From Massilia putida (GTDB taxonomy: Bacteria > Pseudomonadota > Gammaproteobacteria > Burkholderiales > Burkholderiaceae_D): 64,000 bases of DNA. Under the pieces are notes generated by a model. The model saw only the letters and a list, made by a program, of their open reading frames with translations, did no database searches and was not told the origin of the DNA. The translations under genes and the position numbers were made by a program. The stretch is taken from positions 2,356,001 through 2,420,000 of the forward strand of contig NZ_CP019038.1 in the NCBI RefSeq assembly GCF_001941825.1. Direction: 5' to 3'. The number at the start of each line of letters is the position of its first letter. The first letter of the stretch is position 1. Shown one piece after another: positions 36,224 through 56,787 of the stretch.

Positions 36224-36439
36224 ATGACTTACCGATGGATCGACGACCAGGGCTTGCTGAAGAAAATGCTCGGGGAACGGCGGATCGACCGCTGGACGGC
36301 CGACAATGTCCAGGACGCCTTGCGCGCGCAAGGGGTGCATGCGGCGGCGCGGGCGATGGAGTACCGGCGGGTGAGACTGGAGACGGCGCTGAGGGTGTTG
36401 GCGGTGCAGGGCAGGCGCCGCCGCTACCTGCTACCTTGA
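36224..36439 (+). CDS. Small conserved-looking protein, unknown
   Basis: 71 residues starting MTYRWIDDQGLLKKML with a strong AAGGAGG seven bases before the ATG. Charged, no membrane segment, C-terminus GRRRRYLLP. No family recognised. The ribosome site makes a real gene likely. Confidence 0.55.
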   Translation: MTYRWIDDQGLLKKMLGERRIDRWTADNVQDALRAQGVHAAARAMEYRRVRLETALRVLAVQGRRRRYLLP

Positions 36440-36649
36440 CCTGTCTCTCCGAAACCGGTTGCAACGGGGCCGCCCGTCGGCTCAAAAGCACACCCGCGGC
36501 CTGTCAGTAACTGGGCCAACGTCACCTGCTCAGCCAGCAACTTCTGCTTACAATCATTACAACCTTATCCGTCCTCTTGCCGCGCCACTCAGCCGTTATT
36601 GGCTCAGGTGATTCGTTTGAACATCACCACCAATTTCAGGAGAATGAAG

Positions 36650-37135
36650 ATGAAAACCACCGTCATGCTCGTCGCAGGTCTGCTGTCCGTCCTGGGCTCC
36701 AGCGCCTTCGCGCAAACCAACGCCGTCGACCAAGTCAAATCGGACAACTCCGCAATCCGCCACGACACGCGCGAAATCAAGCTCGATCAGCGTGACATCC
36801 ATCACGACAACCGGGCGATCGCATCGGAACAACGTGACATCGTCCATGACCGGAACGTCGCGGCCCTGGAAAAACGGGATGCCCGTCACGATCAGCGCGT
36901 CGAGGACAAACTGATCGCGAAGGGCGACCTCGCGGATGCGCAGAAGCTGGACAAAGCGCGTCGGCACGAACTCAACGAAGCGAAGATCGCCGCACGCGAC
37001 GCCCATCATGACCGCAACGTGATCGCCATCGAACGGAAAGACCGGGCGCACGACAAGGCGGCGCTGGCCGACGAGCGCGCCGAGCGCAGGGCCGAGGTCG
37101 CGCAGCGCGATCGCGACGCCGCGCACATCCGTTGA
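36650..37135 (+). CDS. Periplasmic HD/RD-repeat protein
   Basis: 161 residues with signal peptide ending SSAFA-Q. The mature chain is almost entirely charged and helical and carries a repeating RD/HD-x-R pattern (RHDTREI, DQRDIHHDNR, EQRDIVHDRN, KRDARHDQR, RDAHHDRN, KDRAHDK) about every 7 or 14 residues. Many His and Asp on the same face suggest metal or polyphosphate binding or a coiled coil. AGGAG lies six bases before ATG 36650. No family recognised with certainty. Confidence 0.65.
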   Translation: MKTTVMLVAGLLSVLGSSAFAQTNAVDQVKSDNSAIRHDTREIKLDQRDIHHDNRAIASEQRDIVHDRNVAALEKRDARHDQRVEDKLIAKGDLADAQKLDKARRHELNEAKIAARDAHHDRNVIAIERKDRAHDKAALADERAERRAEVAQRDRDAAHIR

Positions 37136-37151
37136 TGGCGGCGGAGCCGGT

Positions 37152-37991
37152 TCAATAGGTGTAAGCGATAGCGGCCGTCGCACTTGCCGACGTGCGCTGG
37201 GCCACGACGGGGCTGTCGCTCACCTTGCCGGTATAGCGGGTGCCGGTCAGTTGGAGCGTGCTCGACCAGTGGTGGTCGAGGTGATGTTCCCAACTGACGC
37301 CCGGCACCTGCTGATACACACCGGCGCCGGGGCCGAAGACGGGGAAGGCTGTCCGCGCCGCCTGCCGCGGCGTCACGCCGAACCAGGCTTGATTGTAGCG
37401 GCCGTCGCCCCACCAGCCGTCCAGGTCGATGGTGACGGTGTCCACGGCATTCTTGAGCGGTGTGAATTCGACGCCAAGGCGGTAGCGGTTGCGGCGCGCC
37501 GTGTCGCGCAGGGCCATTTCGGTTTCGGCACTGACCAGGAACCATGCCGTGAACGTTTGCGCAATCAGCGTGCGGGCAGTCGCGGACCCGGGCACATCGC
37601 CCATGCCGGCAAGCCGGTTGGAACCGGGGCGCCAGCTGTTGTTCCTGTCGAGACGGCCAAGGTCGTAGAAAAACGACTGCGCCACGTAGAATTCCGACGC
37701 CGACTGGTATTGCACGCCAATACCGCGCAGGGTGTCGGCGAACAGGATGCCGCGCTGGATGGACAGCACCGGATTGGGGACGAGCTGCCGGCTGGCCGCG
37801 CCGGGATAGCGCGCCGCGTACGTTGCACCGGCGCCGATCGTCACCTCGGTTTTTTCCCCGAACATGTTTTGCTCCGCCGGCTGGGCCGCCACGGGCTGCT
37901 CGGCCGGCGCGGGCACGTCCGCGCGCCCAATGTTCGGCAGGACGGCGAGCGCTACCGCGAGCAGCGTCATGGGCAGTGCGTATGTTTTCAT
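37152..37991 (-). CDS. MipA/OmpV-family outer membrane protein
   Basis: 279 residues with signal peptide (ending NIGRA-D). Beta-strand-rich, begins VTIGAGATYAARYPGAASRQLVPNPVLS, which is the usual MipA/OmpV opening, and ends with an aromatic residue (AIAYTY). Convergent with the HD-repeat gene. Family members act as outer-membrane scaffolds or channels; the specific role here is unknown. Confidence 0.85.
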   Translation of the reverse strand: MKTYALPMTLLAVALAVLPNIGRADVPAPAEQPVAAQPAEQNMFGEKTEVTIGAGATYAARYPGAASRQLVPNPVLSIQRGILFADTLRGIGVQYQSASEFYVAQSFFYDLGRLDRNNSWRPGSNRLAGMGDVPGSATARTLIAQTFTAWFLVSAETEMALRDTARRNRYRLGVEFTPLKNAVDTVTIDLDGWWGDGRYNQAWFGVTPRQAARTAFPVFGPGAGVYQQVPGVSWEHHLDHHWSSTLQLTGTRYTGKVSDSPVVAQRTSASATAAIAYTY

Positions 37992-38129
37992 CTGAGCTCC
38001 TTGCGTCGATCGGACGAGGGTAGCACGCGGGCGCGTTTGCCGGACAGTAGGCAGAAGGGAGAATATCCGCCGCTTACGCGATGGGTGAGTCGGCTGCGAC
38101 GAAGACCCGAGCTAACGTGTTGCCAAGCA

Positions 38130-38343
38130 ATCCAATGCTGCCCTTCGCTCCAGAGGGCTTAGCGGTACAACGACGGTCTTGTCCTTGTCGGCGCCCTTGG
38201 CCGGCCGTTACTATGCTGAACCATGACCGTTCCACACGAAATTGACGCCGCGACGAAGAGCCTGGCTGCACAGCCATCTGTCGAAAACACACACCCATCG
38301 ATCCGCAGGGTGCGAAGCCCGGGAAAGGCCCCTTCACCCCGAT
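38130..38343 (+). repeat. Decayed partial copy of the mutS promoter and 5' end
   Basis: Aligns base for base with 56700-56913 over about 190 bp, including TTAGCGGTACAA, the ATG (38223 here, 56788 in mutS), CACACGAAATT and ATCCGCAGGGTG. Small indels shift the frame: a frame from ATG 38223 stops after about 50 codons. The similarity ends where regulator coding sequence begins near 38343. Confidence 0.85.
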
Positions 38344-39685
38344 GGGCTGGCAACGCCTGTTGCCAGCCCAGTTGATGCGTGGCCAGGTGCGGGTGCGGCT
38401 GGCGATTGCATGGGGCATGGCCTTGGCGATGCGGGCCGACGAAGCGGAGGCGATGCTGGCCGATATCGAGACCGATAGCGCGACCGGCGCCATAGCGGAC
38501 AGCGAAGCGCTGTCATGCGAATGTAGCGCGATCCGCTCCGTGCTGGCGGCGTTTGCCGACGATTCCGCGCGCGCCGTAGTGCTGGCCGAATCCTGCCTTG
38601 CGCGCAATCCGGCCGACGCATGGACAGCCAATGTCGCGTCGAACGTGCTGCGGTTTGGCTACTGGAAAAGCGCTCGCTTCGACCTGTTTTATGCGGCGCC
38701 ATGGATACCTTATTCACTGGAGGAAGACCGACGCAACGTGTTTTCTTCGGTGTACCGGTTGTCCCTGCAGGGTTTGGCCGAATTCCAGCAATTGAGAATT
38801 GACGTCGCCGAGCGCCATTGCAACGAAGCGATGCGGCTGGCCGAGCTGTATGTGGGGCCCCATTCGGCGGCAGCAGCCCTGCCCTCGAACCTGCTTGCGC
38901 AAATCCGCTATGAACAGGGCCAATTTCAGCAGGCGGAAGACCTGATTGCCGATCGTCTGCCTACTATGAACGCAATCGGCATGATCGAGCACCTGATCTG
39001 CGCCTACGTCGTGCTGGCGCGCCTTTCCGCTCACAACATGAATCTTGAGCGCGCCTATGCACTGCTGGAACAGGCGGAAACGCTAGGCCACACGCGCGGC
39101 TGGAGCCGGGTCATCGCCACCGTGCTACTTGAGCGTCTGCGGCTGTTCCTAGGCGAAGGACGTAATTTCGAAGCGTCCGCCTGCTTGTTACGGATGGAGC
39201 GGATCGCGGCGCAGTATCCGGTGCAGGCGCGCTGTGCCCACACGGAACTGCACGAATTACTGGCACTTGGGCGGGAAACTATGGCGTGCGCCGACAGCAA
39301 CCCGGCCCAGGCGGTGGCCTGGCTGGAGCCTTTGCAGTCCGATTGTGAGGCGAGCCACAACTTGTTCATGTCGTTACGGACGGGTATGGCGTTGGCAACT
39401 GCCCTGTTCGCGTGCGAGCGCCAGGAACAGGCGATGCAGGTCTTCTGTACCGTTCTGCGACGGGCCGCCGCGGCCAAGGTCATTCAGGTCATCCTTGATC
39501 AGGGACCGGATGTCATTCCCCTGCTGCTGCACGTGCGGGGAGCGGCAGGGCATGTGTCCGGGCATGCGGTTGGTATCACACCGGAAACAGTGAAGTGACA
39601 CTTGAAAAACATTTTTGCCAAGCTCAAAGTCACCAAACGCCAGCAGGCGGTACAAGCTGCACAGACCATGGGATTGCTGGGGTGA
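38342..39685 (+). pseudogene. MalT/LuxR-type regulator remnant
   Basis: Reading frame 38342-39598 encodes a 418-residue TPR-like region characteristic of large MalT/LAL regulators (GWQRLLPAQLMRG, then helical repeats). The N-terminal ATPase is missing. Near the C-terminus a LuxR helix-turn-helix appears with its first half deleted: GITPETVK, then an in-frame TGA (39596-39598) where a Trp is expected, then HLKNIFAKLKVTKRQQ to a second stop at 39683-39685. So it has lost its 5' part, part of the HTH and one codon. The 5' side is replaced by the mutS-like fragment. Confidence 0.82.
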
Positions 39686-40297
39686 TTCGGCCAGGCGGGA
39701 TAGCAGGGCACGGCCATCCCTCCCTGGCAATCAGGCGCGCACCGCCCGGGCTGCTGGAATTACGGGTCGCCACTGGAGGTAGTTGGCGAAGAGTCCAGCG
39801 AATACGGCATCGGCCAGCAGAAAAGTCGAGATAGCCGGTTGGTATTTTTCAGCTACCATTGGCTCTGTTGCTCAAATCCGTCCCTGCAACGGCTAAGCCG
39901 GGCTACGGGTAAATTGAAATGCGATCCTTTCGTTAAGATTGGTCAGGATCCTACGTCGCTGAACATCTCTACCAGCAAGCGTCGGTCATTTTTCCTCGGC
40001 GGTGAGCGGATACACGTCGCGCATGCGCACGCCCACTAGTTCGGAAGCGCGAAGGTCGAGTTCGCGCAGCGCGACGAAGGCGGACCGGTCACGGGCCGCA
40101 GCTACTCTACTCCTCATTATGCCCGCCAGTTTCAAGGGCCAACTTCCTAGTAAAGCACACCAGCAATAAAATTGCAATATATGCAATATGTGAGGCATTT
40201 GTTTCACAAGGCGAGTGTCACAATCTGATTCGATGTCGCGACGCGACGTCGTAACGGTGCCCTTTCGACGACATTTACGCTCAATGTGGAGGTCTTT
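39686..40297. other. Gene-poor left part of the accessory region
   Basis: 612 bp without an intact gene. On the minus strand at about 39986-40120 a short frame reads LRELDLRASELVGVRMRDV, resembling the GLRxSELxxLR segment of tyrosine recombinases, but nothing else of the enzyme remains. AT-rich sequence at 40150-40200 may hold the promoter of the next gene. Confidence 0.35.
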
Positions 40298-42760
40298 ATG
40301 TTGCTTGCACGAATAGGTCTGGTTTCTCAATCCGCGTCAGTTGATTTTCCTGAACTTTCCAAAGTAGCGGCCGCGATCAATCTCCAAGTCGCGCGTGACC
40401 TGGCACCTATCTGGGGAGTGACCGGTGCAGTGTCGGCGCTCGCAAACGCCGAGGCAATCGAGCCGGGTGTCTGGCCTGTATATGTCTGTGATACGCTGGA
40501 CGACGACCTTGCGGGCTTCCACCTGACAGCCCACAACCAGCCCTACGCCATGGTTCAGTATGGACCGACCTGGTCGCTTGGTGCAAGCCACGAGGTTATG
40601 GAGATGCTGCTCGATCCAAGTGGGAACCGCCTGATCGCCGCGAACGCAGTCGGCATAGTCGACAACGAGATCTGCGACGTTCCCGGAAAAGTCGAGTACT
40701 TGCTCGAGATTTGCGACCCGTCTGAGGACGACAAAAACGCCTATCTGATTGACGGCGTCCTCGTGTCAGATTTCTATACGCCCGACTATTTCGCACCGTC
40801 CGGTACGATAGGTGGCCGCTACAGCTTCAGCGGCCGCGTCGAGCGGCCCCGCCAGGTCCTGCCGAACGGATACTTGACCTGGTTCGACCCGATCACGAAT
40901 CTGCTGCAGCAGGTCCGGCATTTCGGCGCACCAGCCGTCAGGACGTTGGCTACTGGCCGGCCTGGTGAGCAATCGCTCACCGGAGGTCTGTCGCTTCGGA
41001 CGTTCGTCGACGGCCTAACCCGCCCGATCAGACCACTCACGCGAGCGCTCGATCACTCGGCAGTGGTACGTGTGCGTGACGAACGCGAGCGCTTGGTTAA
41101 AGCGGCGGGTGTGAGCCGCGCAACACTGTTTTTAGCCGCAGCAAACAATGCGAAAAAGTATTTAGCTGCGAACGTGCACTCTGCGATGTCAAGCCACGAA
41201 CAGGCAGCCGCGGCATTGGCGGCGCATGTCAAAGAGGTCTCACTACCCGGCGTCCTTTCGGCGAGACCAAGCCTGCGCTGGGCCCAGCAGGCCGGTGCTG
41301 GGTATGAGATCCTTTTAACAGTCCAGCCTAATCAGCTCGCGGACCTCGAAACCAAAATTCCCCGGGAACTGGACGAAGTGCCAGTGCGCCTCCGGGCAGC
41401 CAGCGCGATGCAACGCATCCGTGCCGAACGTCCGGTCGAGTTCGTTACCCTTGCTGGCGCGCGCCACGAGCTGCGCGAACCGCAGTTCGACGACGAGATT
41501 TTTTTCGACGAAAACGGCACCCGTATCGATCCACCCTTAGCCACCGCCTTCGCTGCCCGTCCTGGCAAGGAACAGATCCCTTATTCCCAGCCCGACGATG
41601 CCACCTTGGACGAGGTGATGGATGACGTTTCTCTTGTGCTTCACGCGAGTCCCGACGCGGGTTGGGACCAGTTGTCCGGCTTCCTCGAAGCCGTCGAAGA
41701 GGAACTCGTGGTCGGGATGTACGACTTCACGTCCGCACACGTACTCCAAGCGGTCGAGCGCGCGCTGGCCGGGGCCGGAAAGCGCCTCATGCTAACGCTG
41801 GACCACCCAGCGCCCAATCCCAGCCGGGATCAGGACGACGATGCCACGTTCGCGGAACTAGCTGAAAAGCTGGACGTGCGTTTTGCCGGCGCGTGGGCGC
41901 TTACTCGCACTGACCCGAAAGCCCCAATATGGATCTATCCGAACGCCTACCACATCAAGGTGGCCGTTCGCGACCGTCATACCTTCTGGCTCTCGTCGGG
42001 AAACTGGAACAACAGCAACCAACCCGAGATCGACCTGAGCGACTTGGCTGCGGCACGGAAGATCGCGGCAGGACATGACCGTGACTGGCACGTGATCGTC
42101 ACCAGCCAACGCTTGGCAAACACGTTCCACGCCTTCCTAGCGCATGACTACGCCCTCGCGCATGACGCGGAGGCGAAAGCCGCGGCCATGGGCATCGCGG
42201 CTATGCCTGCCACACCGATGCCAGAAGTCCCTGTCGAGGCGTTTGCGGCCGGACGCGCGCCAAGAACATTCTTTACGCCGAAGACATTAAGCGGGACGAT
42301 GCGCATCCAGCCGCTACTCACCCCCGACAATTACTCAGCGAAGGTTCTGCCGCTGATCCAGAGTGCCACGCAGAAATTCTACATGCAGACCCAGTACATT
42401 CACCCGAGCGGCAAGCCAGGCGACGAAGAGCACGACCGCTTAATCACGGCCGTGCGAGACTTGGTCGAGCGCGGCCTGGACGTGCGCCTCATTACGAGCG
42501 AGTTCCAGACAGACGATTGGGTTGAGAAGCTCGTCACCGCGGGTATTCCAGCCTCGGTGCTGCGCCGTCAGCCCAAAGTGCACAACAAAGGTATCCTTAT
42601 CGACGGAGAGGTCGTTATGGTTAGCAGTCAGAACTGGTCGGCCGACGGCACACAACGCAACCGCGACGCGGGCCTGATCATCTACAACGCCGAGGCTAAC
42701 GCCTATTTCGAGCAGATCTTCCTGCACGACTGGGACAACCTCGCGTCACCGGCAGCTTAA
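40298..42760 (+). CDS. HExxE-motif and tandem phospholipase D domain protein
   Basis: 820 residues. N-terminal region has SHEVMEMLLDP with His98, Glu99 and Glu102, followed by DNEICDVPGKVEYLLEICDP, similar to zincin-like domains in phage and bacterial proteins. The C-terminal half has two HKD motifs: HIKVAVRD with Asn-rich GNWNNSN (from residue 552) and HNKGILID with SSQNWSADG (from residue 762), so a complete phospholipase D active site is likely. GGAGG (40288-40292) lies five bases before ATG 40298. No signal peptide. Function unknown; lipase, nuclease or toxin-like activity is inference. It is the largest gene of the accessory region. Confidence 0.8.
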   Translation: MLLARIGLVSQSASVDFPELSKVAAAINLQVARDLAPIWGVTGAVSALANAEAIEPGVWPVYVCDTLDDDLAGFHLTAHNQPYAMVQYGPTWSLGASHEVMEMLLDPSGNRLIAANAVGIVDNEICDVPGKVEYLLEICDPSEDDKNAYLIDGVLVSDFYTPDYFAPSGTIGGRYSFSGRVERPRQVLPNGYLTWFDPITNLLQQVRHFGAPAVRTLATGRPGEQSLTGGLSLRTFVDGLTRPIRPLTRALDHSAVVRVRDERERLVKAAGVSRATLFLAAANNAKKYLAANVHSAMSSHEQAAAALAAHVKEVSLPGVLSARPSLRWAQQAGAGYEILLTVQPNQLADLETKIPRELDEVPVRLRAASAMQRIRAERPVEFVTLAGARHELREPQFDDEIFFDENGTRIDPPLATAFAARPGKEQIPYSQPDDATLDEVMDDVSLVLHASPDAGWDQLSGFLEAVEEELVVGMYDFTSAHVLQAVERALAGAGKRLMLTLDHPAPNPSRDQDDDATFAELAEKLDVRFAGAWALTRTDPKAPIWIYPNAYHIKVAVRDRHTFWLSSGNWNNSNQPEIDLSDLAAARKIAAGHDRDWHVIVTSQRLANTFHAFLAHDYALAHDAEAKAAAMGIAAMPATPMPEVPVEAFAAGRAPRTFFTPKTLSGTMRIQPLLTPDNYSAKVLPLIQSATQKFYMQTQYIHPSGKPGDEEHDRLITAVRDLVERGLDVRLITSEFQTDDWVEKLVTAGIPASVLRRQPKVHNKGILIDGEVVMVSSQNWSADGTQRNRDAGLIIYNAEANAYFEQIFLHDWDNLASPAA

Positions 42761-42920: not shown

Positions 42921-43727
42921 TCAAGTGTTCATCCACGAACTGTGGCCTGCTGCCGATTCGGATGACACCGCTTTAAGCTTTTTAGCTTCTTCAAACTGTA
43001 CCGGACTAACGTATCCCAAGATCGAATGGCGCTTCGCCGTTCCGATGCGTTTGCCCTCGCGTAAACGTCCCTTGCTGCGAAGCTTTCCCCGCATAATGAC
43101 CCGCCACCAGTTCGGCACCTCCTCGGGCAGTTTGCCCGCGTCATGACCGAAGTCCCAGGCGGTGCCAAGCTCTAGCCGAACCCGCCCCGCTTGCACGGGG
43201 GTTTCGATAAATGTGTGAAGCAAGGCGAATGCCCGCGCACGGGTGACCTTCGCCGGGTCGAGCTCTCCAAACTCTCCGGACCACTCCTCGGGACACGTCG
43301 CACATAACGCGTAGTTCAGCGTCCGGCGAGTCTCGTCGATCCCTTTCTGTTTGCGCTTTCTTTCGACATGCCCGGCCAGATAAAAATTGACTAACGTACG
43401 CACCGTCAGCGTTCGGCTCGACTTCGAGCGCGCAGCTTCCTTCTCTTCGTTTTCCTGGGCACGTTTGGCGCGACGCTCGACAGCAGGATCCTCGCCCCGC
43501 GCGCGCTGGTCGCGCAGCTTTTCCCATTCGGCCTTCGCCGCGTTGATCGATACCGCAGGCCAAGCACCAATCTTCACCTGACGCATCTTGCCGTCGACGG
43601 GACTCTTGTAGCGATAGATCCATGCGCGTGTCGTCGATGACACTTCAAAGCGGAGACCCGGGCAGTCGGGCATGGTGTAGTGCTCACCGGGGGCCAGCAG
43701 CTTGGCCGCCCTGGCGTCGAATACCAT
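42921..43727 (-). pseudogene. Truncated integrase fused to an IS3-type transposase tail
   Basis: 268 residues. Residues 1-60 are an arm-binding DUF4102-type domain (LRFEVSSTTRAWIYRYK) and about 100-230 an SAM-like core-binding domain ending MRGKLRSKGRLREG. The catalytic domain with the R-H-R-Y residues is absent. From residue 234 (base 43028) the frame reads HSILGYVSPVQFEEAKK, which is the conserved C-terminus of IS3-family OrfB. So an IS end has replaced the catalytic half. AAAGGAGG precedes the ATG. The protein should be recombination-dead but may still bind DNA. Confidence 0.78.
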
Positions 43728-43983: not shown

Positions 43984-44064
43984 GGCGTAGCTTTTTGACC
44001 GTCCGCGACACCGGTTTGCTCCCTAGGCGTAGGTTCGACGGCAGAGCATCGAAAAAGCTACGCC
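43984..44064. repeat. 81-bp segment bounded by 13-bp inverted repeats
   Basis: GGCGTAGCTTTTT and its exact complement bound a 55-bp core. A shorter copy of the same arm is 130 bp to the left. This may be a miniature inverted-repeat element or the stem of a large RNA hairpin. Confidence 0.5.
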
Positions 44065-44551
44065 AATCCGTGAAGTGAAGTGAAGCGATGCCGCCTGATG
44101 CGTCGTGATGTGATCGAGAGCCACGCGAGCCCAAAGAATCCGCAACAAAATCATGAAGTTAGACGACGACATGCCGTTAGATCAACAAGTTACCAAGTCC
44201 GGAAAAAGCCAGCACACCCCGATGATGCATGGGTGTGTTCTCGAATGAACATTTGCGGTGAACAGGGAAACCTACGCCAAAAACTGCGCCAGTCGAGTTC
44301 GGCATTGGCCTGTTTCGACGACATTCATCCGCAGGACGCGGCCCGTCGCGGATTCTCCCTGCATGCTATCGATGCGGGCCAATTAATACCTTGATTTATA
44401 TTGTTTATATTGTTTTTTAGATTCAAATAGGCACTTTTTGCGACTACACTGCTCATCCAGGTTCGCGCGGCCGTGCTTAAGGCGACCTGGAAATGCTAGA
44501 CGTGCTCGAACTACGCCAGCAGATATTCCCTGAGCCGTAAATGCTAAAATA

Positions 44552-44570
44552 CGAATCAAATCCTGATTCG
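44552..44570. promoter_or_regulatory. Palindrome immediately upstream of fic
   Basis: CGAATCA-AATCC-TGATTCG ends 8 bp before the Fic ATG, overlapping the expected ribosome-binding area. No clear Shine-Dalgarno is seen, so it could be an operator for autoregulation or a translational hairpin. Confidence 0.45.
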
Positions 44571-44578
44571 AAAAAAGC

Positions 44579-45742
44579 ATGAATACGCCTCAAACCCCCA
44601 TGTACGTATGGCAACACAAGGACTGGCCGCAGTGGAAGTTCGATCCCGCGGCAGTTCAGAAAGCTCTTAGCTCTGCTCGCCTCGCGCAGGGGATGCTGCT
44701 GGGCGCGGTGCACGCAATCGGCTTCGGTTCCGCAGACCTGGACAACGTGCTCAGCGAGATATGGGTGCAGGAAGCGATTTCGACCGCGGCAATCGAGGGG
44801 CAGTCCCTCGACCTTGACCAGGTGCGATCGTCAGTGATGAGGAAAGTGGCCAACAGGTACATCGGTCCGTCATCACGACACATCGACGGGCTGGTCGACA
44901 TGATGGATGACGCTATCGCCAATTGCGATCAGCCTCTCGACGAAAATAGACTTTGCAGCTGGCAAGCCGCCCTCTTCCCAACTGGGCGTTCGGGTGTCGA
45001 GAAGATCGAGGTTGGACGATACCGTTCCTTTGATGAACCAATGCAGATCGTTAGCGGGCGGCCCGGGCGCGAGGTCGTTCACTACCGAGCTCCTGACTCA
45101 AGAGATGTGCCGGCGGAGATGGATAAGTTCTTGAGGTGGTTCAACCAGGCGCCACGGATGGACATCGTAGTCAAGGCAGCGATCGCTCATCTATGGTTCG
45201 AGACGATCCATCCCTTCCACGATGGGAACGGACGGATCGGGAGAGCCATCATCGACAGCGTCGTCGCGCAGGAGACAGGGGGCGATAAAAGGCTTTACAG
45301 CATGTCGCGGCAGATGGAGGAAAACAGAGGGCGATACTACGAGCAACTGAACCAGGCGCAAAAAGGAGATCTCGATATCACCGACTGGATCATATGGTTC
45401 GCAGACCAGTTCGCGGCCTCGTGCCAGAAGTCCCTGAAACATATTGACGTCGCTCTTGAAAAAGCGCGCTACTGGGCAGCCCATTCGGGAGACGAGTTCA
45501 ATGAGCGGCAGAAGAAGGTGCTCGAAAAATTGCTGGATGCCGGAAATGGCGGATTTCTCGGCGGGCTTACGCGAGAGAAATACACGAAAATCACAGGCTG
45601 CTCGGATGCGACGGGGACGCGTGATCTGGCCGATTTGTTGCAAAAGGGCGCCCTAACCTCCGCCGGCGTCGGGAAAGGCACCAAATACTTTGCGAACGTA
45701 CCTGGGTGGCATGGGAACACTGAACAGCCGCAGCTGCCCTAG
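44579..45742 (+). CDS. Fic-domain AMP-transferase-type protein, class II
   Basis: 387 residues. Complete Fic motif HPFHDGNGR (211-219). The inhibitory helix motif STAAIEG (68-74, Ser-x4-Glu-Gly) lies on the same chain, N-terminal to the Fic core, which marks class II proteins that self-inhibit and need no separate antitoxin. The C-terminus (about 310-380) looks like a winged helix (TREKYTKITGCSDATGTRDLADLL). Predicted to transfer AMP or a similar group to a target protein. No separate antitoxin gene is adjacent. Codon use is more mixed than in the flanking genes. Confidence 0.9.
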   Translation: MNTPQTPMYVWQHKDWPQWKFDPAAVQKALSSARLAQGMLLGAVHAIGFGSADLDNVLSEIWVQEAISTAAIEGQSLDLDQVRSSVMRKVANRYIGPSSRHIDGLVDMMDDAIANCDQPLDENRLCSWQAALFPTGRSGVEKIEVGRYRSFDEPMQIVSGRPGREVVHYRAPDSRDVPAEMDKFLRWFNQAPRMDIVVKAAIAHLWFETIHPFHDGNGRIGRAIIDSVVAQETGGDKRLYSMSRQMEENRGRYYEQLNQAQKGDLDITDWIIWFADQFAASCQKSLKHIDVALEKARYWAAHSGDEFNERQKKVLEKLLDAGNGGFLGGLTREKYTKITGCSDATGTRDLADLLQKGALTSAGVGKGTKYFANVPGWHGNTEQPQLP

Positions 45743-46297
45743 ACACTGCCAAACCGCAATCCAACTTTTGCCCGCTGGGCCAGGATGCTACGCCGACGAA
45801 GCACAGCAATTTGCCAGCGTCGGCAATGCTCATTTTCTGCCATAACACACCTTGCCCTCTGTTGTCGCCAATAGTAGGTTTGCCTCAGTCTCCGCTCGCG
45901 GAATATAGCCGAGTGGTTCCTGTATCGGTGATGGTTAAGCCAAGGCACCTGTTTCAGGTGCTAAACCTTGGCAACTTGACTGTGCGCGACATCACCTGCC
46001 TCTCGCGGAAGGCGTTCCGTTACAACCGCTCACACTGTGGACTCAACAAGCACGATCATGTCTATAGAATAGACAACAAGTCGATGTGATATCGGGGACA
46101 TCGGGCCAGGCGGGGAGCTTTCCCGCCGACTACCCCATTTGCCTGCCAGCGACAGGGACTGCTATGCCGGAACGAAGAACCGATGACGAAACCGCACTCG
46201 TTACAGAGTATGCTTTGTTCCTGTCCGAGACATCTCGTCGACGATCGGAACGCCGGCGCAAAAACCGCAACTGAACCATAGGCGTAGATCCCGAACG
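45743..46297. other. 555-bp stretch after fic, little content
   Basis: No recognisable gene. A small frame at 46164-46274 (36 residues, ending RRRSERRRKNRN, AGGGA upstream) could be a short basic peptide, but support is weak. This marks the right edge of the accessory region before dedA. Confidence 0.35.
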
Positions 46298-46948
46298 TTA
46301 CGAAGTCGCTCTCCGTCGACCGAATTTTTGCTTGGCCCAGGCAAACACACCAGGCAGGATGGACAATAAGACGACCCCGATCAGCACCATCGAAAGATGG
46401 TCGCGGATCCAGCCCACGTTACCTAGTTTGTAGCCGGTGCCAACCAGCAGTCCGACCCAAAGCAGACCGCCGCACACGTTGTAGGCGATGAAGCGGCCGA
46501 AGTGCATACTGCCGAGTGCCGCCACGAAGGGCGCGAACGTCCGCACAACCGGGACGAAGCGGGCCAGGATAATCGCCTGCGGTCCGTGTCTGTCAAAGAA
46601 TTCGCGGGTCCGGTCCAGGTGTCGCTGGTTGATCAAGCGCGCCCCCGCCCCTCCGGCAGCCAGGTGCTTGCGCATTATCGTGCCCGCTGCAAAATTCGCC
46701 GCGTCTCCGCCTATCGCCGCGAGCGCGACGGCAATGAGCAGGATCGCCAGGTGCAGGGCGCCGCCGGCAGCCAGCGTGCCGGACACGAACAGCAAGGAGT
46801 CGCCGGGCAGGAACGGCAGCAGGACAACACCTGTCTCGACAAAGATCACGGCGAACAGCATCAGATAGACCCACGCCCCATGCGCTGCGGTGAACGCGGC
46901 AAGTCTGGTATCGAGATGAAAAATCCAGCCTGATGCTGCCTGGAGCAT
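46298..46948 (-). CDS. DedA-family membrane protein
   Basis: 216 residues with about five membrane segments. Family features: PFLPGDSLLFVSG near the N-terminus, GGDAANF, and FARFVPVVRTFAPFVAGL-type sequence (ARFVPVVRTFAPFVAAL) with the two conserved arginines. The family acts in membrane-lipid (undecaprenyl phosphate or phospholipid) translocation. ATG 46948 has GAGAAAG upstream. Near the border of the accessory region but typical chromosomal in composition. Confidence 0.88.
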   Translation of the reverse strand: MLQAASGWIFHLDTRLAAFTAAHGAWVYLMLFAVIFVETGVVLLPFLPGDSLLFVSGTLAAGGALHLAILLIAVALAAIGGDAANFAAGTIMRKHLAAGGAGARLINQRHLDRTREFFDRHGPQAIILARFVPVVRTFAPFVAALGSMHFGRFIAYNVCGGLLWVGLLVGTGYKLGNVGWIRDHLSMVLIGVVLLSILPGVFAWAKQKFGRRRATS

Positions 46949-47200
46949 GACTTTCTCTTTGCTGATCGATTCGTATGACCACGCCCGGCTCGTGGCGCGT
47001 GGCAGGTTCCGGTGGTAAGCCCAAGAATAACCTGTCGCTCGGGCACGCACGAGACAGATAACGAAAAAAAATCACGCATGGGCAAGGGCACGATGCGTCT
47101 CTGGTTGGCAGCCGCACGATTGTGTACGTCGCGCAGTAGCAGCTAAGTTTCCTCCGTAGCCTCTCGTTTGCACAACTCTTGCGCTTTTTGGCGAGGCATC

Positions 47201-47413
47201 ATGCACCGCTACGCAGAACTCACCCTGTTAGTCCTCGTCATTGCCGCGGCCGGCACTACAGGCTACGTCACCGGGCTCAGCCCACCCCAGCAACCCGCCG
47301 CTCTGGTGTTGGCGGTGGCGAATTTCCTTGCCGAGCGGCTCCTCTGGGCGATTCCATTCCTGATCGGCATCGGCCAGCGCGGCAGGGCTCGGTATCTGGC
47401 CGCAATCCTTTAA
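47201..47413 (+). CDS. Small membrane protein, unknown
   Basis: 70 residues, mostly hydrophobic with two probable membrane segments (LTLLVLVIAAAGTTGYV and WAIPFLIGIG). Start at 47201 with GCGAGG upstream; an in-frame ATG at 47168 is less likely. No family recognised. 59 bp upstream of the efflux operon on the same strand. Confidence 0.5.
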   Translation: MHRYAELTLLVLVIAAAGTTGYVTGLSPPQQPAALVLAVANFLAERLLWAIPFLIGIGQRGRARYLAAIL

Positions 47414-47472
47414 TCGTCCATTCATTGTCCGATTGGTAAGCTGGGCAATAATGTCACGTGTGCCCCACTACG

Positions 47473-48837
47473 ATGGTCTACCGATTCCTTTCGTGTATGT
47501 GTTGTCTGGCAGTAGCCGGCTGTGCGACCTACCGGCCGCTGCCGCTCGGACCTGTCCCCGAGCTGCCCGGGTGTCCTGCCCAGATCCAGGTCGACACGCG
47601 CAGCCTGCCGTTTCCCGTATTGGCCGCGCATCCCTTCGATCCGCACGACGGCCTCGACGAGATCGAGGTCGCGACGCTGGCCGTGGTGAACAATCCCGAT
47701 CTGAAACTGGCGCGCGACGATCTTGCCGTGTCGCGTGCCCAGGCCTTCGCCGCAGGCCTGCTGCCCGACCCGCAGCTGGCGCTGGCGGGCGATGTGTCCA
47801 ACAGCGACGCCAGTCCGGGCGGCACACGCGCTTTCAGCTTTGGCCTCAACTACGACGTCGGGGCGTTGATCAGTCACGCCGCCGGCCGCCGCGCCGCCCA
47901 GGCCGACGTGCGGAAGACCGACCTGGCGCTGCTGTGGCAGGAATGGCAGGTCGCCTCGCAGGCGCGGCTGGCGTTCGTCCGGTTGACCCATGGCCGGCGG
48001 CTGCTGGCCGTGCTGGACGCGAACCGGGCGCTGTTCGCCGACCGCGCCACGCGCACGGAACAAGCCCAGCAGCGCGGCCTGCTCACCAGCGACGCGGCGC
48101 TGCCCAATCTGACGGCGCTGCAGGACATCGATAAACAAATCCACGACCTGCAGCGCCAGCTGAGCCAGACCGCGCATGACCTGAACACCTTGCTCGGCCT
48201 GGACGCCCGCTTCGATCTGCGCCTTCAGGACGGCACGCCGCCCGCGTTCGCGGACGAGGGTGCGGCGGATAGCGCGCTGACCGACCTTCACCGGCGCCGT
48301 CCCGACCTGCGCGCCCTGGTCGCAGGCTACACGGCACAGGACCAGCGTTACCGTGCGGCGCTGCTAGCCCAGTTTCCTTCACTGAACGTGGGCCTGACCC
48401 GCTCGCGCGACAACAGCAACGTATATTCGAACAGCCTGGGCATCACGCTATCGCTGCCCTTGCTGAACCGCAACCGCGGCAACATCGCCATCGAGCAGGC
48501 CACGCGCCAAAAACTGCACGACGAATACCAGGTGCGCGTCCAGGCGGCGCGTAACGAGATCCGCGCCGTCCTCGATCAGCAGCGCCTCGACCGCGCGCAG
48601 CTGGAACGCATCGATACCGCGCTGGCCCGGCTGGAGCCGGCCATCCAACGCAGTGACCTGGCGGCGCGCGCCGGGTTGATCGATGCGCTCGCGTACACGA
48701 ATGCGCGAGCAGCGCTGCTGGCCAAGCAGGCCGAGCGGATTACCCTGCAGCAGCAGATCGCCGAACAGCGTGTCGCGCTGCAAACCTTGCTCGGGATCGC
48801 TCCCGATGCATCCTCGACTGAACATCCCCAACCATGA
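47473..48837 (+). CDS. TolC/CzcC-like outer membrane efflux lipoprotein
   Basis: 454 residues. A short signal peptide with lipobox LAVAGC predicts lipidation. Two repeated long helical regions rich in A, Q and R alternating with beta segments (GGTRAFSFGLNYDVG and SNSLGITLSLPLLNRNRGNI) are typical of the OEP family. Outer-membrane channel of the RND system encoded next. ATG 47473 chosen because the lipobox then sits at about residue 17. The stop overlaps the adaptor start (ATGA). Confidence 0.88.
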   Translation: MVYRFLSCMCCLAVAGCATYRPLPLGPVPELPGCPAQIQVDTRSLPFPVLAAHPFDPHDGLDEIEVATLAVVNNPDLKLARDDLAVSRAQAFAAGLLPDPQLALAGDVSNSDASPGGTRAFSFGLNYDVGALISHAAGRRAAQADVRKTDLALLWQEWQVASQARLAFVRLTHGRRLLAVLDANRALFADRATRTEQAQQRGLLTSDAALPNLTALQDIDKQIHDLQRQLSQTAHDLNTLLGLDARFDLRLQDGTPPAFADEGAADSALTDLHRRRPDLRALVAGYTAQDQRYRAALLAQFPSLNVGLTRSRDNSNVYSNSLGITLSLPLLNRNRGNIAIEQATRQKLHDEYQVRVQAARNEIRAVLDQQRLDRAQLERIDTALARLEPAIQRSDLAARAGLIDALAYTNARAALLAKQAERITLQQQIAEQRVALQTLLGIAPDASSTEHPQP

Positions 48838-49904
48838 AGACATCCATTCTCGTGATCGGCGCGCTCGTCGTGGCCGTGGGTGCCGCGGTTGCATGGCACT
48901 GGCACGCCGGCGCCGGCACCGCCGATGCCGCGCCGGAAAATGCGGCAGAGCCCAGCGCGCTGGTCCGCGTGCAGCAGGTAGCCCGCCAGAGCATGCCCCG
49001 GACCCTCGACACCTTCGGCGACATTGCAGCGGGCAAGCCGGAATCGCTCAGCTTTCCTCAACCCGGCCAGTTGCTCCGCTTGCCGCTGGTGCCGGGTCAG
49101 CGCCTGCGTCGCGGCGATATCGTCGCCGTGATCGGTACCGATCCGAATACCGCCGCCGCCTATGCGCAGGCAGCGAACGCGGTCGGCTTCGCCCAACGCG
49201 AATTGAAGCGCCAGCAGGAACTCGCTGGCTTGCAGCTGGCCACGCAGTCCCAGGTCGATGCCGCGCGCAAGCAGCTGGAGGACAGCCAGGCCGCGCTGGC
49301 GGCGCAGGCGAAACTGGGCGGGGCCCATGCGAGCGTGACGCTGACGGCGCCGTTCGATGCCGTCGTGACCGCATTGCCGGTCGCGCAGGGCGAACGTGTC
49401 GCCGCCGGCGCGCCGGTCGCCCAGCTTGGTCCCACCGGCCATCCGCGCGCACTGCTGGCGATCGAGCCGGCCCGCAGCGCGGCCGTGAAACCGGGCATGG
49501 CGGTCACGCTCAAGCCGCTGCTGGACGGTGCCGCACCGATCATAGCGCACGTCGCGACTGTCGATGGCGTGATCGACCCGAAGAGCCAGATGGTGACCGC
49601 GATCGTGAACCTGCCTGCGAGCGCGGCTGCGGGCCTTGTGATTGGGACGCGCGTGGAGGCGACGATCACGCTTGGCGAAGGTAGCGCCTGGAGCGTCCCC
49701 CGCCAGGCCGTGCTGAGCGACGACCAGGGCAGCTACCTGTTCCAGGTCGCGGGCGGCCATGCGCGTCGCGTCGCCGTGAACGTGCTGGACGAGACCGCGA
49801 GGACCTATGGCGTGGACGGTCGGATCGACCCGGCGCAACAGGTGGTCGTGCTCGGCAACTACGAGCTGCACGACGGCATGCCGGTACGCGAGGCGAAGCA
49901 ATGA
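48834..49904 (+). CDS. RND efflux periplasmic adaptor (MFP)
   Basis: 356 residues. N-terminal membrane anchor, then lipoyl-type halves (SFPQPGQLLRLPLVPGQRLRRGD and TAPFDAVVTALPVAQGERV) around a coiled hairpin, and beta-barrel and membrane-proximal domains. Connects the pump with the outer membrane channel. Overlaps both neighbours by 4 bp, so the tripartite system is translationally coupled. Confidence 0.9.
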   Translation: MKTSILVIGALVVAVGAAVAWHWHAGAGTADAAPENAAEPSALVRVQQVARQSMPRTLDTFGDIAAGKPESLSFPQPGQLLRLPLVPGQRLRRGDIVAVIGTDPNTAAAYAQAANAVGFAQRELKRQQELAGLQLATQSQVDAARKQLEDSQAALAAQAKLGGAHASVTLTAPFDAVVTALPVAQGERVAAGAPVAQLGPTGHPRALLAIEPARSAAVKPGMAVTLKPLLDGAAPIIAHVATVDGVIDPKSQMVTAIVNLPASAAAGLVIGTRVEATITLGEGSAWSVPRQAVLSDDQGSYLFQVAGGHARRVAVNVLDETARTYGVDGRIDPAQQVVVLGNYELHDGMPVREAKQ

Positions 49905-52900
49905 CGCTGGCCGGGTGGACCCAGGCGCACCGGCGCTCGATTCTGTTCTTGCTCGCGCTGCTGGCGTTGGCGGGCCTCGTCGCGGCGTTCCGCCTGCCGG
50001 TATCGCTGTTCCCGACCGTGGACTTTCCGCGCGTGGTTGTCTCGATCGATGCGGGCGACCAGCCCGCCGAGCAGATGGAAATGCTGGTCACGCGGCCGGT
50101 CGAGGAGGCGGTGCGCCGCGTGCCGGGTATGCGCAACGTGCGCTCGACCACGAGCCGCGGTTCGGCCGAAGTCTCGATCACCTTCGACTGGGGCCTCGAC
50201 ATGGCGGCCGCCGCGCTGCAGGTGAACGCGGCCATCGCCCAGGTGCAGGGCTCGCTGCCCGCGGCGACGCAGGTGCTTGTGCGGCGCATGGACCCGACCG
50301 TGTTCCCGATCATCGCCTACAGCCTGGTCTCGAGCACGATGTCTGAGGTTGCACTGCACGACCTGGCCGAGTTCCAGTTGCGTCCCGCGCTGTCGAGCGT
50401 GGATGGCGTGGCGCGCGTGCAGGTGCAGGGTGGCGCGATCGAGGAATACCGCGTGACGGTCGATCCGGCGCGCCTCGCGGCGGTCGGCCTGGCGCTGGAC
50501 GACGTGGCGAAGGCCGTGTCGGCGGCGAACGTGATCAGCGCGGTCGGCCGGCTGGAAGACCACTACAAGCTGTACCTCGCGGTGTCGGACACCCGCCTCG
50601 ATTCCCTCGCGCGGCTGCGCGCACTGGTGCTGCGCAACCCCGCTGGCGGCATGGTGCGGCTCGCCGACGTCGCCAGCGTCGATGCCAGCACGGCGCCGAA
50701 CTGGACCCGCGTGACCGCCGACGGCCGCGACGCCGTGCTGTTCTCCGTCTACCAGCAGCCGGGCAGCAACAGCGTGCAAATCGCACAGGACATCAAGGCG
50801 CGCCTGGACGGCCTGCGCAAGCAACTGCCGCCAGGTGTGCAAATCGCCAGCTGGTACGACCAGAGCGAACTGGTGACGGCGTCGGCGGCCAGCGTGCGCG
50901 ACGCCGTCCTGATCGGCATCGGTCTGTCGGCGGCCGTCCTGCTGCTGTTCCTGCGCAACGTGAAGGTCACGCTGATCGCGATCGTCGTCGTGCCGGCCGT
51001 GCTGGCCAGTACGGTGGTGTTGCTGTACGTGCTCGGCATGAGCTTCAACATCATGACCCTGGGCGGCATGGCGGCCGCGGTCGGCCTGATCATCGACGAT
51101 GCGATCGTGATGATCGAGCACATCATGCGGCGCCTCCAGGGCGGCGAAGGCGAGGTGCACAAGCGCGTGATGGCCGCCGCGCTGGAATTCCTGCGCCCCT
51201 TGGCCGGCTCCAGCGCGTCGACTCTGGTGATCTTCGTGCCCCTGGCTTTCCTCTCCGGCGTGACCGGTGCGTTCTTCAAGGCGCTGTCGCTCACGATGGC
51301 GGCGGCGCTGTTCATCTCCTTCCTGATCAGCTGGCTGGCGGTGCCGCTGCTGGCCGACCGCTTCCTGAATGCGAAGGACGCCGAGCACGCCCCCGATTCT
51401 CGCCTGGTGCGCTGGCTGCACGGGCACTACCGGCGCGTGTTCGGCGCGCTGCTGGCGCGGCCCTGGCTGCTCCTGATCGGCGTCCTACCGCTGCTGCTGG
51501 CCGGTTTTGTCGCCTACCGCGCGGTCGGCTCCGGCTTCATGCCGGCCATGGACGAAGGCGGCTTCGTGCTCGACTACCGCGCGCCGCCCGGCACCGCACT
51601 CACCGAGACCGACCGTCTGCTGCGCCAGGTCGAAGGTATCATCCGCGCGACGCCCGATGTCGCCACCTATTCGCGCCGCACCGGCGCCGGCCTGGGCGGC
51701 GGCCTCAACGAAGCCAACCAGGGCGACTTCTTCGTGCGTCTGAAACCGTCGGGCCGGCGTCCGGTGGACCAGGTGATGGACGACATCCGCGGCCGCATCG
51801 AGCACGAAGTACCCGGCATCGAGGTCGAGATGGCCCAGCTGATGGAAGACCTGATCGGCGATCTGACCGCCGTGCCGCAGCCGGTCGAGATCAAGATCTT
51901 CGGCGACCGTCCCGGCACGCTGGCCGCGAGCGCGCGGGCGGTGGCGGCGCGCCTCTCCAAGATCGACGGCGTGGTCGACGTCAAGGATGGCATCAACCCG
52001 GCCGGCGACGCGCTTGACATCCGCGTCGATCCGGCGCGGGCGGCACTCGAGGGCATGGACGCCGACGCCATCACACGCTACGTGTCCAGTGTCCTCTCCG
52101 GCACCGTCGCGACGCACGTGCCGGGCGGCGTCAAGATGGTCGACGTACGCATCTGGGTGCCGCAGAACCAGCGCGCCACCGAGACCGATCTGCGCCGGCT
52201 GCGCGTGGTCGCGCCGGACGGTCACGTGTTCCCGCTGCAGCGCGTGGCCGAGATCCATGCGGTCACCGGCCAGGCGCAGATCACCCGCGAGAACCTCAAG
52301 CGCATGGTGGCCGTCACCGCGCGCATCAGCGGGCGCGACCTCGGCTCCGTGATCGCCGATGTCCAGAAGATGATGGCCCAGCCGCGCACGCTGCCTGCCG
52401 ACAGCTATTACCAGCTGGGTGGCCTGTACGAGCAGCAGCAGATCGCCTTCCATGACCTGATGGCGGTGTTCGCCGCCGCCAGCACGCTCGTGTTCCTGCT
52501 GCTGCTGTTCATGTACGAGAGCTTCCGGCTGGCGCTGTCGATCCTCGTCACCGCGCTACTGGCCGTGTCGGCCGTGTTCATCGGCCTGTGGCTGACCCAC
52601 ATCGAGCTGAACATCTCGGCCATGATGGGCATGACCATGATCATCGGCATGGCCACTGAGGTAGCGATCTTCTATTACTCGGAGCAGCAGGAGCTGGTCG
52701 CCGACCGCACGCGCGAGCAGGCCTTGCTGGAAGCGGGATTGAACCGCATGCGGCCGATCGCGATGACGACGCTGGCCGCGATCCTGACCTTGCTGCCGCT
52801 CGCGTTCGCGCTCGGGCGGGGCTCCGAAATGCAGCAGCCGCTGGCGATCGCCATCATTTCCGGGCTGGTCGTGCAACTGCCGCTCGTGCTGCTGCTGATG

Positions 52901-52954
52901 CCTGTCCTGTTTCACCTGATGCGCGGACGCTCGTCCGGCGCCGACCAAGTCTGA
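49901..52954 (+). CDS. RND-family efflux permease
   Basis: 1017 residues with the usual duplicated architecture: TM1, a large periplasmic loop starting LPVSLFPTVDFPRVVV, a TM2-6 block with GLIIDDAIVMIEHIM, a second periplasmic loop, and a final TM block ending MRGRSSGADQV. The TM4 acidic pair is the proton relay. The closest type is the HAE/HME group related to CzcA and MdtB. Substrate (metal or drug) cannot be decided from the sequence. Followed by a beta-propeller gene and a two-component system, likely its regulator. Confidence 0.93.
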   Translation: MTLAGWTQAHRRSILFLLALLALAGLVAAFRLPVSLFPTVDFPRVVVSIDAGDQPAEQMEMLVTRPVEEAVRRVPGMRNVRSTTSRGSAEVSITFDWGLDMAAAALQVNAAIAQVQGSLPAATQVLVRRMDPTVFPIIAYSLVSSTMSEVALHDLAEFQLRPALSSVDGVARVQVQGGAIEEYRVTVDPARLAAVGLALDDVAKAVSAANVISAVGRLEDHYKLYLAVSDTRLDSLARLRALVLRNPAGGMVRLADVASVDASTAPNWTRVTADGRDAVLFSVYQQPGSNSVQIAQDIKARLDGLRKQLPPGVQIASWYDQSELVTASAASVRDAVLIGIGLSAAVLLLFLRNVKVTLIAIVVVPAVLASTVVLLYVLGMSFNIMTLGGMAAAVGLIIDDAIVMIEHIMRRLQGGEGEVHKRVMAAALEFLRPLAGSSASTLVIFVPLAFLSGVTGAFFKALSLTMAAALFISFLISWLAVPLLADRFLNAKDAEHAPDSRLVRWLHGHYRRVFGALLARPWLLLIGVLPLLLAGFVAYRAVGSGFMPAMDEGGFVLDYRAPPGTALTETDRLLRQVEGIIRATPDVATYSRRTGAGLGGGLNEANQGDFFVRLKPSGRRPVDQVMDDIRGRIEHEVPGIEVEMAQLMEDLIGDLTAVPQPVEIKIFGDRPGTLAASARAVAARLSKIDGVVDVKDGINPAGDALDIRVDPARAALEGMDADAITRYVSSVLSGTVATHVPGGVKMVDVRIWVPQNQRATETDLRRLRVVAPDGHVFPLQRVAEIHAVTGQAQITRENLKRMVAVTARISGRDLGSVIADVQKMMAQPRTLPADSYYQLGGLYEQQQIAFHDLMAVFAAASTLVFLLLLFMYESFRLALSILVTALLAVSAVFIGLWLTHIELNISAMMGMTMIIGMATEVAIFYYSEQQELVADRTREQALLEAGLNRMRPIAMTTLAAILTLLPLAFALGRGSEMQQPLAIAIISGLVVQLPLVLLLMPVLFHLMRGRSSGADQV

Positions 52955-52975
52955 CGCTGTCCATATGGAGAAACC

Positions 52976-53953: not shown

Positions 53954-54031
53954 GCGCGCGGTTTGCGGTAAGCTGGCGGCGCGATTTCCGAGGTGTTCCA
54001 TGACTAATTCACGCTCCCGCGACAACCACCC

Positions 54032-54694
54032 ATGCGCCTGCTGCTGATCGAGGACGACCCGATGATCGGCGACAGCATCGCCGAAGGCCTGCGCGCGGAA
54101 CGCTATGCGCTCGACTGGGTGCAGGACAGCGGGGCCGCCCAGCTGGCGCTGGTGACGGACGTCTACGACCTGTTGTTGCTCGACCTCGGCCTACCGGGCC
54201 GAGACGGCCTCGACGTGCTGCGCCAGTACCGCGCCCGCGGCGGCCAGGCACCGGTCCTGATCATCACGGCGCGGGACAGCACCGCCGACCGCGTGCAGGG
54301 ACTGGACGGCGGTGCCGACGATTACCTGGTCAAACCGTTCGATCTGGAAGAGTTGTTCGCGCGGGTACGTGCGCTGCTCAGGCGCGGCGCCGGCCGCGCG
54401 CAACCTGACATCGTGCACCGCGGCGTGACCTTGCGCCTGACCGCGCACGAGGCCCTGCTCGACGGGAAGCCGTTACCGTTGTCGGCGCGCGAATTCGCGC
54501 TGCTGGCCGCGTTGCTCGACCCGCCCGGACGCGTCATGTCGAAGGCATTGCTGGAACAGAAGCTGTACGGCTGGAACGAGGAGGTCGAGAGCAACACTGT
54601 GGACGTGTACGTGCACCGCCTGCGCAAGAAGCTCGGCGCGGATTTCATCAGGAACGTGCGCGGCGTGGGCTACCTGGCGCCGCTGGCTTCATGA
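54032..54694 (+). CDS. OmpR-family response regulator (QseB/PmrA-like)
   Basis: 220 residues: receiver with EDD near the N-terminus, acceptor in DLLLLDLGLPGRDG and Lys in VKPFDLEEL, then winged helix with RLTAHEALLDGKPLPLSAREFALL and ESNTVDVYVHRLRKKLG. The partner kinase starts 18 bp downstream. Likely controls the upstream efflux operon. Confidence 0.92.
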   Translation: MRLLLIEDDPMIGDSIAEGLRAERYALDWVQDSGAAQLALVTDVYDLLLLDLGLPGRDGLDVLRQYRARGGQAPVLIITARDSTADRVQGLDGGADDYLVKPFDLEELFARVRALLRRGAGRAQPDIVHRGVTLRLTAHEALLDGKPLPLSAREFALLAALLDPPGRVMSKALLEQKLYGWNEEVESNTVDVYVHRLRKKLGADFIRNVRGVGYLAPLAS

Positions 54695-54712
54695 AGACCG
54701 CATGAGGATCCC

Positions 54713-56648: not shown

Positions 56649-56787
56649 GTGCGGGCACGCGGCGAAGGAACACGAGCATATTAGACCACGTTGGCTGAAT
56701 CCCATGCCCTTCCATCCGCTGGCCTTAGCGGTACAATGACGGCCTTGTCCTGGTTGGCGCCCTGCCCGGCCGATACTTTTCTGAATT

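Follow-up and report, generated by a model that had tools for sequence, protein, structure and literature searches.

Orphaned mutS starts at the boundaries of putative mutS-targeted integrative modules in Massilia putida

Three mutS starts are found in a stretch of 64,000 nt of the Massilia putida genome (NZ_CP019038.1, positions 2,356,001-2,420,000; assembly GCF_001941825.1), which was analysed as a whole and is referred to as the window in the following. One of them (56690-56913) is in use, while two (38115-38344 and 44095-44229) are orphaned. Judged from comparisons of the sequence with itself and with relatives, the segment 38115-38344 is very probably an orphaned mutS start located at the boundary of integrative modules that target mutS. 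There are at least two island modules between the three starts, and a rearranged older module probably lies left of the first one.

The orphaned starts and the modules of the window

The first orphan had been described in a sequence-only reading of the window as a partial duplication of the mutS promoter and 5' end, comprising TTAGCGGTACAA, the ATG and about 40 codons with indels, which ends exactly where MalT/LuxR coding sequence begins; a pairwise alignment had been named as the check. All of these elements are confirmed by the alignment. Hereby, positions 38139-38344 and 56705-56913 are 81% identical over about 205-209 bp with few small indels, and the local alignment score of 217, compared to a maximum of 29 among 500 shuffles, places the identity well beyond chance. 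In a search of the whole 7.5-Mb genome (E ≤ 0.001) the orphan copy matched two places, itself and the mutS 5' end, the latter with an E value of 4e-48 (reverse query: 1e-48), where 40 of 48 first-look candidates were scored for the forward query and 27 of 27 for the reverse query. The orphan copy carries TTAGCGGTACAA at 38159-38170 and its ATG at 38223, and the similarity to the mutS start reaches 38344, i.e. about codon 41. The last ATG shared by both copies (38342-38344) is also the first codon of the MalT-like open reading frame (ORF), and the junction is thus exact. The third, diverged start at 44095-44229 had been overlooked in that reading. The features of the window are, from left to right:

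36424..38114, minus strand, probable rearranged remainder of an older module (module 1)
36596-37183, minus strand, ORF neighbouring the MipA-family gene, within the block 36424..38114
37152-37991, minus strand, MipA-family gene (Pfam PF06629)
38115..38344, plus strand, orphan mutS start 1, type I, frameshifted; comprises the upstream region, the ATG (38223) and the first 41 codons or so
38342..39598, plus strand, MalT-like TPR ORF, remnant of a LuxR/MalT-type regulator (PF17874)
40286..42760, plus strand, PLD-domain protein, cargo of module 2 (PF13091)
42921..43727, minus strand, truncated integrase of the mutS-associated family with arm-binding domain; residues to about 233 are kept
43984..44064, no strand assigned, TACGCC/GGCGTA repeats at the right end of module 2 (starts at 43984, 44026 and 44059)
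44095..44229, plus strand, orphan mutS start 2, type II, right end of module 2; ATG at 44153
44222..44226, plus strand, recombination core ATGAT; core length taken from the empty-site comparison with genome G009
44227..56913, plus strand, module 3, with an intact left end at 44227 and a type I start as right end
44579-45742, Fic protein, the gene nearest to the left end of module 3
46298-47050, minus strand, VTT-domain protein, module 3
47458-52954, OEP-MFP-RND efflux operon, module 3
YncE-like gene, module 3
54032-56061, two-component system, module 3
56058-56705, minus strand, polyketide-cyclase-like gene, module 3
56690..56913, plus strand, in-use mutS start, type I, right end of module 3
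56788..59523, plus strand, mutS, complete ORF with MutS domains I-V matched
56863..56907, plus strand, 15-codon tail, absent from host-type starts and resembling type II tails

The proposal that the junction might place a regulator remnant under the promoter of a repair gene is judged unlikely with regard to function. The MalT-like ORF is partial and is not read in the frame of the orphan ATG, from which it is offset by 2, and MalT under mutS control was for the same reasons set aside as a working arrangement. The reading frame of the orphan ATG itself meets a stop after 50 codons. Only a TPR region is recognised in the MalT-like ORF, whereas the sole paralogue that the own genome yielded, with 25% identity, is part of a 920-aa open frame; thus, most of such a protein is missing, and by eye the C-terminal DNA-binding part is broken as well. 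With regard to the copied "mutS promoter", conservation of the upstream region is confirmed, but no sigma-70-like consensus site was detected at either type I copy (0 sites), and the upstream region is therefore a putative promoter by virtue of this conservation.

Since the left end expected for module 2 at 38344 is missing, the MalT junction is probably the result of a later deletion. In support of this, orphan start 1 is frameshifted and the MalT piece is a remnant; of the core ATGAT only the ATG remains at the 38344 junction. Further to the left, positions 35400-36423 are similar to G009, G030 and G035, and the similarity to relatives without the MipA block stops at around 36423 (relatives are given by genome, G, contig, C, or locus, L). 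The segment 37025-38072 matches contig C6 of G031 in opposite orientation, where its counterpart lies to the right of an orphan mutS start, at a distance of about 440 bp.

Orphan start 2 reads MKLDDDMPLDQQVTKSGKSQHTPMM, followed by HGCVLE and a stop, which are supplied by the next module, whose left end, GCATGGGTGTGTTCTCGAATGA, follows directly after the core. This start is recognisable through relatives only. Compared with the own mutS start it shows no significant similarity, the score being 20 over 35 bp and the maximum of the shuffles 28. A repeat search yields 64% identity between 44164-44224 and orphan start 1. What identified it was its identity to the starts that mutS uses in two relatives, 93% over 150 bp in G035 and 96% over 109 bp in G030. 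The integrase next to it lacks the catalytic part. Pfam matches no family either in the tail of this integrase, which by eye looks like the end of an IS3 transposase, or in the ORF 39986-40330, which by eye resembles an integrase remnant. The repeats at 43984..44064 are possible arm sites of the integrase.

Two side observations concern module 2. In G035 the integrase adjoining mutS (L040) is broken at about the place where the integrase of the window ends (residues 233-241), and the ORFs that follow it resemble, by eye, an IS3-type transposase pair. The cargo protein encoded at 40286-42760 has a length of 824 aa, with a C-terminal PLD domain and weak DrmC/MkoB matches in PADLOC, whereas no Pfam family was matched in its N-terminal 680 residues or so.

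Module 3 contains no integrase match (PF00589, PF13356). The segment 47403-56918 is 95.3% identical to G031, where the counterpart of the module 3 cargo (95.3% over 9.29 kb) ends in an orphan start, to which the in-use start of the window is 95.6% identical (229 bp). Compared to this, the mutS bodies of the window and G031 are only 90.8% and their in-use starts 74% identical. Because start and cargo both match this G031 segment at about 95%, the present mutS start most likely arrived with module 3. Hereby, the element supplies the upstream region and the start codons, and the mutS ORF stays open. No integrase lies beside mutS in the window; the only one found is truncated and located 13 kb upstream of mutS at orphan start 2, and these parts of the window therefore show no sign of present mobility. 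As a separate observation, the Fic-domain protein matches the SoFic model of PADLOC with an E value of 3e-50.

Empty, filled and stacked sites in relatives

An empty site is present in G009, where mutS comes directly after a cyanophycin-synthetase-like gene and a small ORF and has a start that reads MNVPREINADAAKRLATEKH-TPMMQQ. In G070 and G066, a host start is stranded about 1.5 kb after the pair of cyanophycin-synthetase-like gene and small ORF and is cut after P-M-M; over 136 bp these stranded starts are 100% (G070) and 97% (G066) identical to the G009 start. Both continue into a common left-end sequence, ATGATGCATGGGTGT, and mutS, now with another start, is found 27.6 kb further on in G070 and 50.8 kb further on in G066. 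A host start that is cut likewise (ATGATGTATGGGTGT; 95.5% identical to G009) is stranded 12.4 kb before mutS in G035. In the latter genome about 10 kb of other DNA separate the conserved neighbours from the stranded start, and G035 is thus not a simple single insertion. Altogether, the three stranded host starts are 95-100% identical to the G009 start over about 135 bp.

The stranded starts of the window (44229), G070, G031 and G035 run from PMM into HGCVLE-like codons (variants: HGCVLD, HGGVLE, HGCILE and YGCVLE) and a stop provided by the left end, while in G066 the left end contains no stop and the frame runs on. At orphan start 2 as well as in G031, G035, G066 and G070 the junction lies within the HTPMMQQ codons (P-M-M). 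The left-end string ATGATGNATGGGTGTRTTCT gave ten matches in 6 of 62 genomes of the same genus, compared to none for a reversed control pattern.

The relatives show empty sites, single insertions and stacks. Tandem modules on one contig each are present in the window and in G070, the latter with two modules. In G031, six core sites including the one at mutS are spread over contigs C6 and C34, which we take to be one stack with a presumed contig order; a search of 82.9 kb read from C6 did not reveal the conserved neighbour gene, and at the leftmost core site no start can be recognised beyond KSAFTPMM. A stranded host start is present in G035, G066 and G070, whereas the stranded starts of the window are of the module type, and a true host mutS start was not found in the window. 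As orphan start 1 itself is of the module type, the first insertion has to be inferred. Starts, cores, left ends, the linkage of module and start, and the empty and filled sites are seen directly in the comparisons.

We propose that a module would insert by site-specific recombination at the core ATGAT, within the P-M-M codons of the MutS TPMMQQ motif. As the right end of the module would carry its own upstream region and first mutS codons, mutS would remain whole but receive a new start, with the previous start being stranded at the left of the module, and repeated insertion at one core would give rise to a stack. For the window, the resulting order would be the remains of module 1 with a type I start, module 2 with a type II start and module 3 with the in-use type I start; most likely, the left end of module 2 would then have been lost in a later deletion that brought orphan start 1 next to the MalT remnant. 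In this scheme we infer the insertions by the integrase family, the role of the upstream regions as promoters, the deletion and the order of events.

An ordinary segmental duplication of the mutS 5' end, due to homologous recombination or a replication error and followed by divergence and fusion to MalT, would be compatible with the 81% identity and with the exact junction. However, the similarity ends at the very recombination core of the relatives; in G031, G035, G066 and G070, stranded starts are joined to one and the same left end, and the in-use start is linked to the module cargo and not to the mutS body. We consider such an origin highly improbable, and a plain duplication of the mutS start was rejected on the basis of the shared core, the left ends and the linkage between start and cargo. 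The earlier suggestion that the duplication may affect recombination at mutS thus holds with respect to the link to recombination, but not to its direction, as the evidence points to the copy being a product of site-specific recombination.

Kinds of mutS start, the integrase family and modules without integrase

Starts in relatives were typed only where PMMQQ[YF] is present. Among 26 mutS starts read in this way, six are of type II, two of type I (the window counted) and 18 of other kinds, some of which are perhaps also occupied. Type II starts (MKLDDDMPLDQQVTKSGKSQHTPMMQQ and kin) are found at mutS of G035, G027, G003, G005, G030 and G017. In the first four genomes a tyrosine integrase with arm-binding domain, whole or broken, lies just upstream of mutS, the one of G027 being intact (437 aa, PF13356 and PF00589); in G030 only DNA from beside the integrase is kept, and in G017 no integrase was seen. 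An integrase remnant of 68 residues or so (residues 1-68) is also located beside a type II start on contig C6 of G031.

Type I starts are host-like as far as EKHT-P, followed by 15 extra codons. Their first part is 79% identical to host starts in the 12 nt that precede the insertion point, and the host-like match returns at a shift of exactly 45 nt, compared to 12-48% at the other shifts tried. The type I tail in turn shows a mean nucleotide identity of 52% (range 38-64%) to type II tails, whereas codon-permuted controls give 26% and none of 2000 reaches the observed value, a statistic that is not a formal probability because the rows are related. Moreover, two forms are present in G031, a short one that lacks the tail and a long one, and their leading sequences are nearly identical. 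The in-use start of the window thus looks chimeric at the sequence level, with a host-like start joined to a 15-codon, element-like tail. In our reading, type I arose when a host-type start was fused in frame to the tail of an element, in a way that is conjectural. A type I start could alternatively be a diverged host start whose 15-codon tail is an unrelated insertion. The match of the first part to host starts and the 45-nt shift would fit here, but the similarity of the tail to type II tails, twice that of the controls, makes this unlikely.

An alignment search for integrase relatives in named genomes found 207 loci, 80 of which were kept. In 56 of these 80 the integrase is located 129-552 bp (median 239) from the TPMMQQ codons of MutS, and in the remaining 24 no MutS was seen. 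Three of the 24 contain an orphan HTPMMQ-like start (L108, L110 and L139, with L108 and L110 representing one strain), and four reach a contig edge with less than 400 bp of upstream DNA (L077, L123, L124 and L125), L124 stopping at HTPMM. For the other 17, whose identity is 46-53% throughout, 1.2 kb of sequence contained no motif of this kind, and their targets may be different ones. With regard to the putative arm sites, TACGCC/GGCGTA occurs 17 times in 1650 bp at 11 left ends, with at least one copy each and at fixed offsets, and 15 times in 2100 bp at five type II right ends, compared to a background of 0.56 per kb over the sequences used for a motif that was chosen after looking. Within 420 bp of type I right ends the repeats are absent in 9 of 9 cases.

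The type I modules of G000, G009, G031, G066 and G070 contain no PF00589 or PF13356 match in genome-wide searches, and an integrase-family protein query (E ≤ 1e-20) finds no match in G009, G031, G066 and G070. A decayed integrase could escape the profile searches, since even the intact one scores weakly against PF00589 (27.9 bits). Judged by PF00589 and PF13356, these are thus modules bounded by recombination sites and without integration genes. Their cargo was scanned against Pfam for 10 of 40 ORFs of the 50.8-kb module of G066, for 20 of 27 listed ORFs of the G070 modules and their edges, and for 17 of 17 ORFs in G009. It comprises mixed functions in G066, citrate/malate use and detoxification operons in G070, and genes for salt and osmotic tolerance in G009 (Na+/H+ antiporters, BCCT, MscS and GT20); the scanned cargo therefore reads as metabolic or stress operons.

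The G009 module (C43:7990-29814; L038, L061, L210) is 21.8 kb long, with a left end and a type I cap, and occupies a site outside mutS. The mutS gene of G009 is uninterrupted; the module separates a gene that by eye is of the GNAT type from its neighbour. The left flank has some match, mostly short, in 43 of 62 genomes, and 11 places, the one in G009 included, were taken up. Among the other ten, the site is uninterrupted in six genomes, that of the window among them, with both flanks 8-155 bp apart. In G061 the flanks are about 1 kb apart, G030 and G031 retain the left flank only, and G004 gives a weak partial match. The uninterrupted site reads CATGATAGCAGA in five genomes and CATGATAACAGA in one. 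Compared to these, the G009 module is inserted within ATGAT without visible loss of target bases, and it appears from this sequence context to have moved together with its type I cap.

To account for these modules we tentatively propose, at slightly less than an even chance, that integrase-less cassettes, with a left arm end and a captured chimeric mutS start at the right, move in trans with the mutS integrase. Adaptive operons for efflux, citrate/malate use, salt tolerance and detoxification would in this way accumulate as stacks at mutS, and now and then at other sites, each insertion replacing the N-terminal tail of MutS and the upstream region. Alternatively, type I modules could be CIME-like elements that decayed after insertion, i.e. 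lost integrase and right arm sites in place. Module 2 of the window, whose integrase is cut at about residue 233, has indeed decayed, and for integrated elements of other kinds decay combined with tandem accretion has been described (PMC5704250). Decay in place would however require independent losses of the same parts with retention of the same cap, given the missing TACGCC repeats at all nine type I right ends and the lack of integrase domains in the modules of five genomes; moreover, the G009 cap sits exactly at the core of a non-mutS site. We regard decay in place as a serious but less than probable account.

Known elements at mutS and repeats at its end

Mobile elements within mutS, which insert at HTPMMQQ and replace the upstream region and start, were described by Chu et al. 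in 2017 (mBio, PMC5296598). According to the main text of that study they are spread across Beta- and Gammaproteobacteria, and their excision was detected in four of five bacteria tested. The elements of that report and those described here have in common the HTPMMQQ insertion, the supply of a new start and a related integrase family near mutS, to which the relatives G035, G066 and G070 add the orphaned host start upstream. The published screen required an integrase adjacent to mutS, whereas here a module without integrase match caps mutS; the stack of starts and the chimeric-looking in-use start likewise go beyond the cases in PMC5296598, from the main text of which the words tandem and Massilia are absent.

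In Burkholderia, Tuanyok et al. (2008, PMC2612704) reported the mutS islands GI8c and Bt-GI4 with a 15-bp direct repeat, ACGCCGATGATGCAG, which corresponds to the same place as the core found here. The passages of that paper on islands at mutS treat GI8c as a putative prophage and contain no stacks or integrase-free modules. As in the CIME/accretion model summarised in a 2017 review (PMC5704250), att-flanked modules without integration genes are stacked here at one target; the worked example of the review is the 3' end of a tRNA gene, whereas the modules described here target the 5' end of a coding sequence, and each of them provides the gene with a start as a cap. Two further reports were set aside, PMC2647930 because its prophages lie at a different place, between mutS and cinA, and PMC7168690 because mutS is only a typing gene there.

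As far as the literature examined goes, the cause is thus of a known type, and the stack, the chimeric in-use start and the integrase-free modules capped with a mutS start, one of them outside mutS, go beyond published cases; for integrase-free stacks at mutS, no description was found in the open-access texts examined. Elements of the SXT/R391 type are inserted in the 5' end of prfC and replace promoter and N-terminus of their target gene; compared to the mutS modules they differ in target and integrase, and they are conjugative. The mutS gene sets the mutation rate. If modules with cargo repeatedly exchange the upstream region and first codons of mutS, gene acquisition would be coupled to the control of repair, and past insertions could be read from the stranded starts. 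Modules without an integrase would escape screens for an integrase beside mutS, and the traffic at this site may therefore be underestimated.

Apart from the modules, repeats were observed at and beyond the end of mutS. Four 15-bp tandem units extend from the mutS stop codon (59521-59523) over 59520-59579. At 63472-63705 there are GCT/GCC/CCG codon repeats in 14 overlapping copies of an 87-nt unit, and beyond this stretch, at 63709-63806, lie two inverted repeats that resemble each other and look like terminators.
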